This document shows, piece after piece, positions 18,666 through 21,278 of a stretch of 64,000 bases of DNA (positions are counted from its first letter, which is position 1; every line of letters starts with the position of its first letter). Made by a program: the position numbers and the translations under genes. Source of the stretch: Pseudomonadota bacterium (GTDB lineage Bacteria; Pseudomonadota; Gammaproteobacteria; Steroidobacterales; Steroidobacteraceae); contig JAFEDS010000010.1 of assembly GCA_018241505.1 (NCBI GenBank), forward strand, positions 248,001 to 312,000. The letters are read 5' to 3'. Under the pieces are notes generated by a model. It had not been told where the DNA came from, made no database searches, and saw only the letters and a list, made by a program, of their open reading frames with translations.

Positions 18666-18695
18666 CTGGGCGGGCCCAGGCCGGGGCTGCCCGGC
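18666..18695 (-). terminator. Two adjacent GC hairpins after iscA
   Basis: GCCGGG/CCCGGC (18680-18695, loop GCTG) begins at the iscA stop codon and is followed by CTGGGC/GCCCAG (18666-18679, two-base loop). Both stems are perfect six-base pairings. On the minus strand no T-run follows, so they may slow or end iscS-iscA transcription before ndk only with help from Rho. Confidence 0.35.
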
Positions 18696-19018
18696 TAGAC
18701 CGAGAAGCTCTCCCCGCAGCCACACTCCCCCTTCACATTGGGGTTGAGGAAGCGGAAAGCCTCGTTGAGCCCTTGCTTAACGAAGTCCACGACGGTCCCG
18801 TCGATGAGCTTGATACTGCCCGGGTCGACGAACACTTTGACACCACGATCCTCGAACATGAGGTCGCCGGGGTTTACTTCATCGGCATAATTGATGACGT
18901 AAGCGAATCCGGAGCAGCCGGTCTTGCGCACGCCCAACCGCAGGCCCACGCCGTGGCCGCGATTGACGAGAAATGATTTGACCCGATTGGCAGCGGATTC
19001 AGTCAGGGAAATAGCCAT
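18695..19018 (-). CDS. iscA: A-type iron-sulfur carrier IscA
   Basis: Carries iron or an Fe-S cluster to client proteins. The 107 residues contain the three conserved cysteines, C35 (TGCSGF), C99 and C101 (GECGCGES). The length and [17 protein letters not shown] start fit IscA. It lies 36 bases downstream of the cysteine desulfurase gene. iscU, hscB, hscA and fdx, which usually surround it, are not present between iscS and ndk. Confidence 0.93.
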
Positions 19019-19054: not shown

Positions 19055-20542
19055 CTACGCCCGTTCCGGCCAACGCCGGACACAAGCCTGTACAGCATCT
19101 TCGATTACCAGGAGCCGGCCCAGTTTCTCCACCGGTACACCGTGCTCAGCCGCCCATTCCGCAGGGGTGCCCGGCTGCAACGCTTCACGTCGCCTGCCCG
19201 GCAGCGCCTTCGCCATCCATGCGGCCACAGCCAGAGTATGGGGGCATCCGTAGGCTTGAAAACGGGCGTCCTTCACAACATCGCCCGCTACGGTCAAATG
19301 AAAGCGAATCCAGGTGTCCTGACCGGGCCCACCCCCCTCACCATGCAATGCTCCGTCGCCACCCGACGGCACTTCAGTGGACGCCGGTGACAACGAACGC
19401 AGACGCCGCACCTCGCGATTCACTGCAGCAATCGCGGTATCTACGTCTGCTTCACTGGTAAAACGCCCTAGGCTAAATCGCAGTGAACTCTGCGCCAATT
19501 GTGTATCCCGGCCCAATGCGCGCAGCACATAGGACGGTTCAGCGGAAGCCGAGTTACAAGCCGACCCTGTAGAGATGGCCAGCTCCGCCAGCCCCATCAC
19601 CAGGCTCTCGCCTTCAACACCCTCAAAGGAAACGTTGAGTACCGCGGGCAGCCGTGACGCGCCTTCTCCATTCAGGTGCACCCCGCCGAGACCCGCAATA
19701 CCAGCCCATAGCCGATCTCGAAACGCACCCAGACGGGGCGCCTCTGCGGGCAGAAGCTCACGCGCCAAAGCACACGCTTCACCCAGCCCCACGACCTGAT
19801 GCGTGGCCAATGTCCCGGGCCGGAGGCCCCGCTCCTGGCCGCCCCCGAACGTCACCGCATGCAGGCGTGGTCGAGCCGAATGGTTGACATACAGGGCGCC
19901 TGCCCCTTTGGGACCGTAAAGCTTATGTCCCGTGAACGAGAGGATATCTACGGGTAACGTGCTGACATCAATCGGGATTTTGCCGACTGCCTGGGCCGCG
20001 TCCGTATGGAAGGTGATGCCTCGCTTGCGGCAAATGGCCCCGATGCCGCCGACGTCCTGAATCACCCCAATCTCGTTGTTCGCAAACATAATGGAAACGA
20101 GAATCGTATCGGGCCGAACGGCGGCCTGGACCGCTTCCGGATCGATTCGGCCGGAGCGATCAGGCGTGAGGTACGTGACCGAAAACCCCTCTTTCTCCAG
20201 GCGCTTACACGGATCCAGCACTGCTTTGTGCTCGGTCCGCGAAGTCACTATGTGACGACCGCGATCGCCATTGGAGCGGGCAATGCCCAGCACGGCCAGG
20301 TTGTTCGACTCCGTCGCCCCGGAAGTAAAAATGATCTCGTCCGGCTGGGCGGACAAAAGCGCAGCCACTTGGGCGCGCGCCTCATCGACCCGAACAGCGG
20401 CGCGGCGTCCGAACACATGCGTCGCCGACCCCGAATTGCCGAAATCACCGTCGGGGCCCATGCAAGTGGTCATGGCCCGCACGACGGCCGGATCAACTGG
20501 CGTGGTGGCTGCGTAGTCGAGATAGATGACGTCACTTTGCAC
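19055..20542 (-). CDS. iscS: Cysteine desulfurase fused to an IscU-like domain
   Basis: Residues 1-380 are a cysteine desulfurase that takes sulfur from cysteine for Fe-S clusters. H105, D181, PLP-lysine K207 (TGHKLYG) and active-site C329 (GSACNSAS) are present. After a Ser/Gly-rich linker (residues 384-408), residues 410-490 resemble IscU: WIRFHLTVAG, DARFQAYGCPHTLA and a final VIEDAVQACV like the IscU LAEDAIKAA helix. Only C433 of the three IscU scaffold cysteines remains. The protein is about 495 residues against the usual 404. Its start overlaps the end of trmJ, and iscA follows. iscR is missing. Confidence 0.9.
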   Translation of the reverse strand: MQSDVIYLDYAATTPVDPAVVRAMTTCMGPDGDFGNSGSATHVFGRRAAVRVDEARAQVAALLSAQPDEIIFTSGATESNNLAVLGIARSNGDRGRHIVTSRTEHKAVLDPCKRLEKEGFSVTYLTPDRSGRIDPEAVQAAVRPDTILVSIMFANNEIGVIQDVGGIGAICRKRGITFHTDAAQAVGKIPIDVSTLPVDILSFTGHKLYGPKGAGALYVNHSARPRLHAVTFGGGQERGLRPGTLATHQVVGLGEACALARELLPAEAPRLGAFRDRLWAGIAGLGGVHLNGEGASRLPAVLNVSFEGVEGESLVMGLAELAISTGSACNSASAEPSYVLRALGRDTQLAQSSLRFSLGRFTSEADVDTAIAAVNREVRRLRSLSPASTEVPSGGDGALHGEGGGPGQDTWIRFHLTVAGDVVKDARFQAYGCPHTLAVAAWMAKALPGRRREALQPGTPAEWAAEHGVPVEKLGRLLVIEDAVQACVRRWPERA

Positions 20543-21278
20543 CGTCGTTTCCTCCCGCGCGCCGTCTACGGGCCTGAACAGCGGTCAGCAGCCCACGCAC
20601 AATATTGGCCTCGTTCTGATCGAGCTCCGCCCGCTGGAGAAAACGTCTGATGCGTGCCATCAAATTGGTACCGCTTTGAGTCCGGTCGCGGAATTCCACT
20701 TCCTCCATCACCTGCGCCAAATGCGCGTACAGATGCTCCATCTGCTCGGGAGTTGCCAACGGCACTTCAGTCGGCAGCGGCACGACCTTAGCTCCCCGAG
20801 CACGAAACAGCTCGTACGAAACGAGTTGCACCGCCATAGCGAGATTCAGCGATAAATAAGCCTGATTCGCGGGAATCCGGATCAGGACGTGCGCTGAATC
20901 AATGTCATCGTTCGTGAGACCCGTACGCTCCGCCCCGAATAGCACCGCAGCGGGCGAACGACGCGCTTCAGCAACGATGCGCTCCGCCGCGTCGCGCACA
21001 TCGACCACGCGGAAATTCTGGTCGCGATCACGCGAAGTGGTCGCGGCGACAAAACCGCAGCCATCGAGGCCCTGAGCGAGCGTGTCGACTACACGGGCAC
21101 GTTCGAGGATGTCATCTGCGCCTGATGCACGTGCGGTGGCTTCCGCGTGCGGAAACTGCTTCGGACGCACGAGGACCAGCTCTTCGAGTGCCATGTTCTT
21201 CATGGCACGCGCTACCGCCCCGATATTTCCCGGGTGCGAAGGTTCGACCAGAACGATACGAATGTTGGGCGACATCAA
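20532..21278 (-). CDS. trmJ: tRNA (cytidine/uridine-2'-O-)-methyltransferase TrmJ
   Basis: A SPOUT-family enzyme that 2'-O-methylates position 32 of tRNAs. The 248 residues begin IRIVLVEPSHPGNIGAVARA and include LFGAERTGL and the C-terminal IPANQAYLSLNLAMAVQL, which form the SAM-binding knot. A helical C-terminal extension ends Arg-rich. It overlaps the iscS start by 11 bases, so the two are coupled. It is divergent from suhB with 44 bases between starts, as in many gammaproteobacteria. Confidence 0.94.
   Translation of the reverse strand: MMSPNIRIVLVEPSHPGNIGAVARAMKNMALEELVLVRPKQFPHAEATARASGADDILERARVVDTLAQGLDGCGFVAATTSRDRDQNFRVVDVRDAAERIVAEARRSPAAVLFGAERTGLTNDDIDSAHVLIRIPANQAYLSLNLAMAVQLVSYELFRARGAKVVPLPTEVPLATPEQMEHLYAHLAQVMEEVEFRDRTQSGTNLMARIRRFLQRAELDQNEANIVRGLLTAVQARRRRAGGNDGAK

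Follow-up and report, generated by a model that had tools for sequence, protein, structure and literature searches.

An IscS-type cysteine desulfurase fused to a ligand-poor IscU homologue in the Steroidobacteraceae

Results

We analyzed a 64,000-nucleotide stretch (the window) of a Steroidobacteraceae genome (GCA_018241505.1, contig JAFEDS010000010.1, positions 248,001 to 312,000). One gene in it, iscS::pseudo-iscU (19055..20542; GTG start, 495 residues), joins an IscS-type cysteine desulfurase to an IscU homologue that retains a single residue of the cluster-assembly site. All window features given below lie, like this gene, on the minus strand. The fusion, its folds, the residues lost and retained together, the selection on the domain and the genomic setting were computed from genome sequences.

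A desulfurase continuing into an IscU-like domain had been read by the initial annotation, made from the DNA letters alone, and is confirmed by the open reading frame together with Pfam, PDB sequence and fold matches. These matches rule out a chance resemblance of the C-terminal domain. A frameshift or assembly artefact joining two genes, named by that annotation as grounds for rejection, is likewise ruled out, as the reading frame runs uninterrupted across the junction in the window and at 19 loci of congeners. Desulfurase and domain share a single open frame in 62 of 80 loci (stops within the last 8 residues allowed). The source assembly (G000) measures 7.88 Mb, where congeners span 1.8–6.9 Mb, and its contamination is 5.67%; it may hold foreign contigs, though the window locus itself is matched in congeners.

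The desulfurase part (residues 1–385; 19388..20542) has the class-V aminotransferase fold (PF00266, 263.7 bits) and matches 1p3w_A with a TM-score of 0.95 by target length, the alignment reaching residue 387. Its two best NCBI families are NF010611 (537.9 bits, cut-off 548) and TIGR02006 (517.7 bits, cut-off 643.2), and we class it as an IscS-type desulfurase scoring under these equivalog cut-offs. The pyridoxal 5'-phosphate (PLP) lysine K207 (19922..19924) and the catalytic persulfide cysteine C329 (19556..19558) align with IscS K206 and C328 and occur in 53/53 fusion genes. Both marks of a group I IscS, the PLP lysine and the long-loop persulfide cysteine, are thus present. The IscS C-terminal tail has no counterpart: the alignment stops at E. 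coli IscS residue 386 of 404, where the linker follows.

Matches in Pfam and to PDB sequences and folds assign the pseudo-IscU domain (residues 401–495; 19058..19342) to the IscU/NifU_N fold and sequence family, as first proposed. It scores 22.5 bits against the IscU equivalog TIGR01999 (cut-off 192.4), and we class it as an IscU homologue and not as an IscU scaffold. At the five assembly-site places C37, D39, C63, H105 and C106 the window protein has Q408 (19319..19321), T410 (19313..19315), C433 (19244..19246), G475 and R476 (19115..19120). The initial annotation was right that normal scaffold ligands are missing and that the last cysteine is replaced. It was wrong that the domain starts after the first cysteine, which is substituted and not cut off.

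The same pattern extends to a 272-protein set comprising 120 fused proteins (the best 120 of 475 matches, window protein included), 120 separate homologues (those listed among 1545 matches), 28 separate proteins from loci of the order, and four fused proteins from families f12 and f15. These sets were selected by similarity and are related by descent, so the figures are counts and not probabilities. C63 is the sole survivor of the five residues in 120/120 fused domains. Overall, C37 occurs in 0/272, D39 in 2/272 (both f12) and C63 in 267/272. Separate homologues retain C63 in 120/120 and C106 in 15/120; separate proteins of the order do so in 26/28 and 3/28, while C63 is found in 1/4 of the f12 and f15 fusions. 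It is also present in 29/29 newly read loci, some from genomes counted before.

C63 goes together with a basic residue at position 103: both are present in 267/272 proteins and both are absent from the other five, which fall in two lineages. In the window protein this residue is K473 (19124..19126); fused proteins have K103 in 119/120 cases and arginine in the remaining one. Charge reversal at K103 of E. coli IscU is reported to abolish IscS binding (PMC2854127). C63 is followed by P-H in pseudo-IscU versus G-S in canonical IscU. Other IscS-facing residues are less conserved, K42 being arginine in 119/120 fused proteins and variable in separate homologues, and K59 mostly glutamine in the fused proteins. 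Within the C-P-H motif H435 is invariant in the 53 fusion genes. An extra cysteine of the last helix, C487 (19082..19084), occurs in 45/53 fusion genes, and its position is cysteine in 57/120 separate homologues.

Among 30 control loci, 23 were canonical and seven were not (L146–L149, L156, L157 and L161; of these L148, L149, L156 and L157 lie outside the order). All five assembly-site residues occur in 23/23 canonical IscU proteins, from other orders of the class. These were picked by the motif GAPACGD, which contains C37 and D39 and makes the result circular for those two; C63, H105 and C106 provide a free test because the motif did not fix them.

Ligand loss is not a consequence of fusion as such, since unfused homologues within the order have mostly lost the ligands too. 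Three separate pseudo-IscUs of the order (L036, L052, L194) have C106, as HC or NC, without C37 and D39, and are possibly intermediate stages of the loss. Separate IscU-like proteins outside the order (L149, L156, L157) have also lost ligands; that of L157, which is not among the 272, retains C63, H105 and C106 but not C37 or D39. In family f14, separate pseudo-IscUs between iscS and iscA (L049:6049-6405 (+) and L042:3717-4070 (-)) lack C63, with YGNPYAIA and YGSPYAIA at its site, and the L049 protein lacks cysteine altogether. The separate pseudo-IscUs without C63 that genomes G073 and G086 encode are 117–118 residues long. The f12 fusions (L024, L025, L057) have GPPIL for GCPHT and no basic residue 103, but carry cysteines close to and within the last helix. 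In public records some separate members, such as P0127 and P0133, are named "iron-sulfur cluster assembly scaffold protein", a label made doubtful by their lost ligands.

The domain is under purifying selection. Across 53 distinct fusion genes (1377 pairs), the ratio of nonsynonymous to synonymous differences (pN/pS) had a median of 0.37 in the desulfurase part and 0.435 in the domain, against 0.887 in the linker; in the same order, 151 closer pairs gave 0.311, 0.359 and 0.801. Because synonymous sites are heavily changed (median pS 0.56–0.62), these values serve only as a contrast within the gene.

The linker (residues 386–400; 19343..19387) occupies the place where IscS would have its C-terminal tail and IscU its N-terminal helix. 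Neither E. coli IscU lacking residues 1–12 nor IscS lacking residues 376–404 supports binding (PMC2854127). The suggestion that the fusion replaces the IscS–IscU contact is plausible, as both of these binding elements are gone and the linker stands in for them. In 60 fused proteins P386 and G401 are 11 to 45 residues apart (median 17), leaving no room for the N-terminal helix. Absence of the helix is based on separate junction comparisons and not on the residue-count alignment, in which fused proteins were trimmed to their last 100 residues and gaps at Tyr3–Asn16 are uninformative. A segment resembling the helix is still present in L026 and L197, fusions of the same family but outside the genus, and in a distant fusion (L148). 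This suggests that fusion came first and helix loss later, the linker assuming the work of the helix.

The genome was also searched for a separate iscU or suf operon, a check proposed at the outset. SufB is present, sufU lies beside sufS, and no separate IscU was found; at 93.9% completeness, absences from this genome are not proof. NifU_N matches were two only, the fused domain and the SufU beside SufS. The contig of the fusion carries sufS, a SufT-like gene and a sufU whose ligand positions are occupied by three cysteines (by eye). SufB was above cut-off in 93 of 99 genomes, this one included, and HscA in 0/99 (97 had weaker DnaK-like matches; the E. coli control was above cut-off). ISC (iron-sulfur cluster) and SUF (sulfur mobilization) systems are described as mutually exclusive, especially in Gammaproteobacteria (PMC10631705).

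Thiolation partners are also sparse. TusA had no match in the genome of the window, was above cut-off in 17/99 genomes and was unmatched in most genomes of the genus; ThiI and TusE/DsrC had no match in the same genome, where MnmA was above cut-off. R46 (20405..20407), at the position of the TusA/ThiI docking residue Trp45 of IscS, is invariant (16/16). The Trp45-to-Arg change in E. coli IscS is reported to lower 5-methylaminomethyl-2-thiouridine and 4-thiouridine to about 5% (PMC2854127). Because Trp45 is replaced by arginine and these proteins have no match, the fusion's IscS seems to have lost its Tus and ThiI partners too.

Related genomes contain the same fusion, as the initial annotation had proposed to check, throughout the genus and beyond it. 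Within 58 genomes of the genus, including that of the window, the two parts share a reading frame in 52 and lie on two contigs in one (G009); five genomes have no such locus, four of these being 70–81% complete. Among 39 loci read across genus, family and order, pseudo-IscU is separate in 28 and fused in 11. A profile for the domain matched 198/198 sampled genomes of the order, although SufU matches it as well and some genomes gave a single match. Three gains or losses of the fused state are needed on a tree built from 45 desulfurases (bootstrap range 3–3), and well-supported branches force two of them; G073 and G086 were scored as "none" though separate, leaving the fused rows unaffected. The fusion appears to have arisen repeatedly in relatives, with one gain and two losses as a possible alternative. 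An IscS::pseudo-IscU fusion also lies outside the order (L148:1459-3063 (-), genome G318), with 8 similar proteins in a large database. It retains the IscU N-terminal helix, has a GCPAT motif and no iscA directly downstream, and its genome has further IscU-type matches.

Discussion

Our preferred reading, held tentatively at a little short of an even chance, is that pseudo-IscU is tethered over the C329 loop and that C433 takes or guards the persulfide for a thiolation client. Cluster assembly would have been left to SUF, and the IscU fold, no longer assembling clusters, would remain above the C329 loop in the housekeeping IscS. Within the genus the covalent linker would hold it there in place of the IscU N-terminal helix and the IscS C-terminal tail. 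The C329 persulfide would then be handed to C433 in the C-P-H motif, or be held and protected by it, and sulfur would pass from C433 to a client such as MnmA. What we infer is that the domain docks in cis, that C433 carries sulfur, and which client receives it. In support of such a relay, C63 is the single ligand kept and is retained together with basic residue 103, and a disulfide between C63 of E. coli IscU and C328 of IscS is cited in PMC2854127.

Several observations weigh against this proposal. In human ISCU2, numbered 32 residues ahead of IscU, the sulfur acceptor is Cys138 (C106, lost in the fusion), Asp71 (D39, also lost) is required as well, and the C138S variant carries no persulfide on any ISCU2 cysteine, as described in PMC11021402. 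PMC2854127 favors Cys37, again lost, as the initial acceptor and places Cys63 second; it also cites a Cys328–Cys37 disulfide in Azotobacter. With the equivalents of Cys106, Asp39 and Cys37 all missing, C433 would have to receive sulfur by an altered reaction. Lineages f12 and f14 keep the protein without C63, which together with the ISCU2 work weakens a general role in sulfur relay. The C329 loop and linker have low confidence in the predicted full model. G029, a member of the genus with a 97% complete genome, lacks the fusion and shows no strong match to pseudo-IscU; its best match is another desulfurase without the domain, accompanied by one weak match to an IscU-type profile.

A structural or regulatory dock without sulfur chemistry is a close rival because of these lost acceptor residues and the two lineages without C63, though we regard it as somewhat doubtful. 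Here the domain would fill the IscU site, order or shield the C329 loop, set the rate and exclude SufU or other partners. Of the residues essential for ISCU2 sulfur transfer, Asp71, Cys95 and Cys138 (PMC11021402), the Cys95 equivalent alone remains, and the near-universal K103 of fused proteins and the persistence of genes lacking C63 fit a dock. In contrast, a plain dock should not need C63, which is almost always kept and has acquired a P-H context. The five proteins without C63 are no proof that it is idle, because they also lack basic residue 103; they resemble loss of a shared function and come from two lineages only.

A reduced metal site is unlikely. It would make C433, with H435, C487 or an IscS cysteine, candidate iron or zinc ligands of a sensor or iron donor. 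The metal of (Zn-NIAU)2 is held by ISCU2 Cys95, Asp71 and His137 with NFS1 Cys381 (PMC11021402), and invariant H435 and frequent C487 would suit such a site, but the D39 and H105 equivalents are lost and C487 is kept in under half of the separate homologues. Less probable still is a functionless relic, an old iscU drifting to loss and kept by its operon place. Uneven ligand loss across the order, greater decay in f12 and f14 and the gap in G029 favor it; the constraint on the domain relative to the linker, the order-wide profile matches (with their SufU caveat) and the recurrence of the fusion speak against it. That the domain is still a scaffold, with putative ligands from C329, C487, H435 or a second molecule joining its one assembly-site cysteine, is very improbable given the near-total loss of C37 and D39, the HscA result and the prevalence of SufB.

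Applied to the whole order, the relay proposal becomes bolder and less assured. It is possible that, after SUF took over clusters, IscU came to relay or gate persulfide for IscS through one cysteine (in C-P-H), was repeatedly built into IscS and stands in for missing TusA and ThiI relays.

Desulfurase–IscU pairs and SufU transferases are already known. The E. coli IscS–IscU heterotetramer (PDB 3lvl) has the same two folds, its IscS C328 and K206 and IscU C63 and K103 have equivalents here, and its IscU contacts Lys59–Gly64 cover Tyr61-Gly62-Cys63, kept in pseudo-IscU. Unlike the fusion, it consists of two chains with the N-terminal helix and C-terminal tail, retains C37, D39, H105 and C106, and operates alongside HscA, which was above cut-off in none of our genomes. 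SufU of the Bacillus subtilis type, an IscU fold that takes desulfurase sulfur and holds no cluster, is the nearest parallel in how the fold is used. Of what we take to be its zinc-binding and acceptor residues, only the C63 equivalent is retained in the fusion domain. The depositors of 5xt5 call SufU a zinc-dependent sulfurtransferase. Its partner is SufS, a different desulfurase class, and the genome of the window holds a separate three-cysteine SufU. Oxymonad SufDSU likewise combines a desulfurase with an IscU-type domain in a single polypeptide, but is eukaryotic, includes SufD and is of the SufS class, whereas the fusion pairs an IscS with a ligand-poor IscU domain. TusA, a single-cysteine persulfide relay from IscS to tRNA thiolation, has the role proposed for the domain, but a different fold and IscS site (PMC2854127). 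Mycobacterium tuberculosis IscS similarly lacks the rest of the ISC system and coexists with a suf operon; the available text of PMC8300815 mentions no IscU-type partner or domain and says that it does not bind SufU.

The Aminotran_5 plus NifU_N architecture is visible in precomputed domains of many fused proteins. Our literature searches found no description of an IscS–IscU fusion with lost ligands, or of a ligand-poor IscU across an order. In model systems IscU both grips its desulfurase and builds the cluster, two jobs that seem to come apart here. A natural protein seemingly with the grip but without cluster building allows tests of which IscU residues serve to dock, to control the loop or to transfer persulfide, and shows a possible fate of ISC once SUF replaces it.

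Downstream of the fusion, iscA adjoins it (18695..19018; TIGR02011, 152.9 bits, cut-off 150.6), and a trmJ-type RNA methyltransferase gene (20532..21278) overlaps its start by 11 bases. The order trmJ-iscS-pseudo-iscU-iscA-ndk-rlmN-pilW is largely conserved; a trmJ match is absent in L024, L025, L029 and L057, iscA in L038, and pilW in L050, L051, L056 and L059. Elsewhere in the genome a second group I-like desulfurase (L205:3346-4476 (+), G000:C46) adjoins a 1171-residue FtsK/HerA-like open reading frame and another of 848 residues, a setting that we take to resemble DNA phosphorothioation islands.
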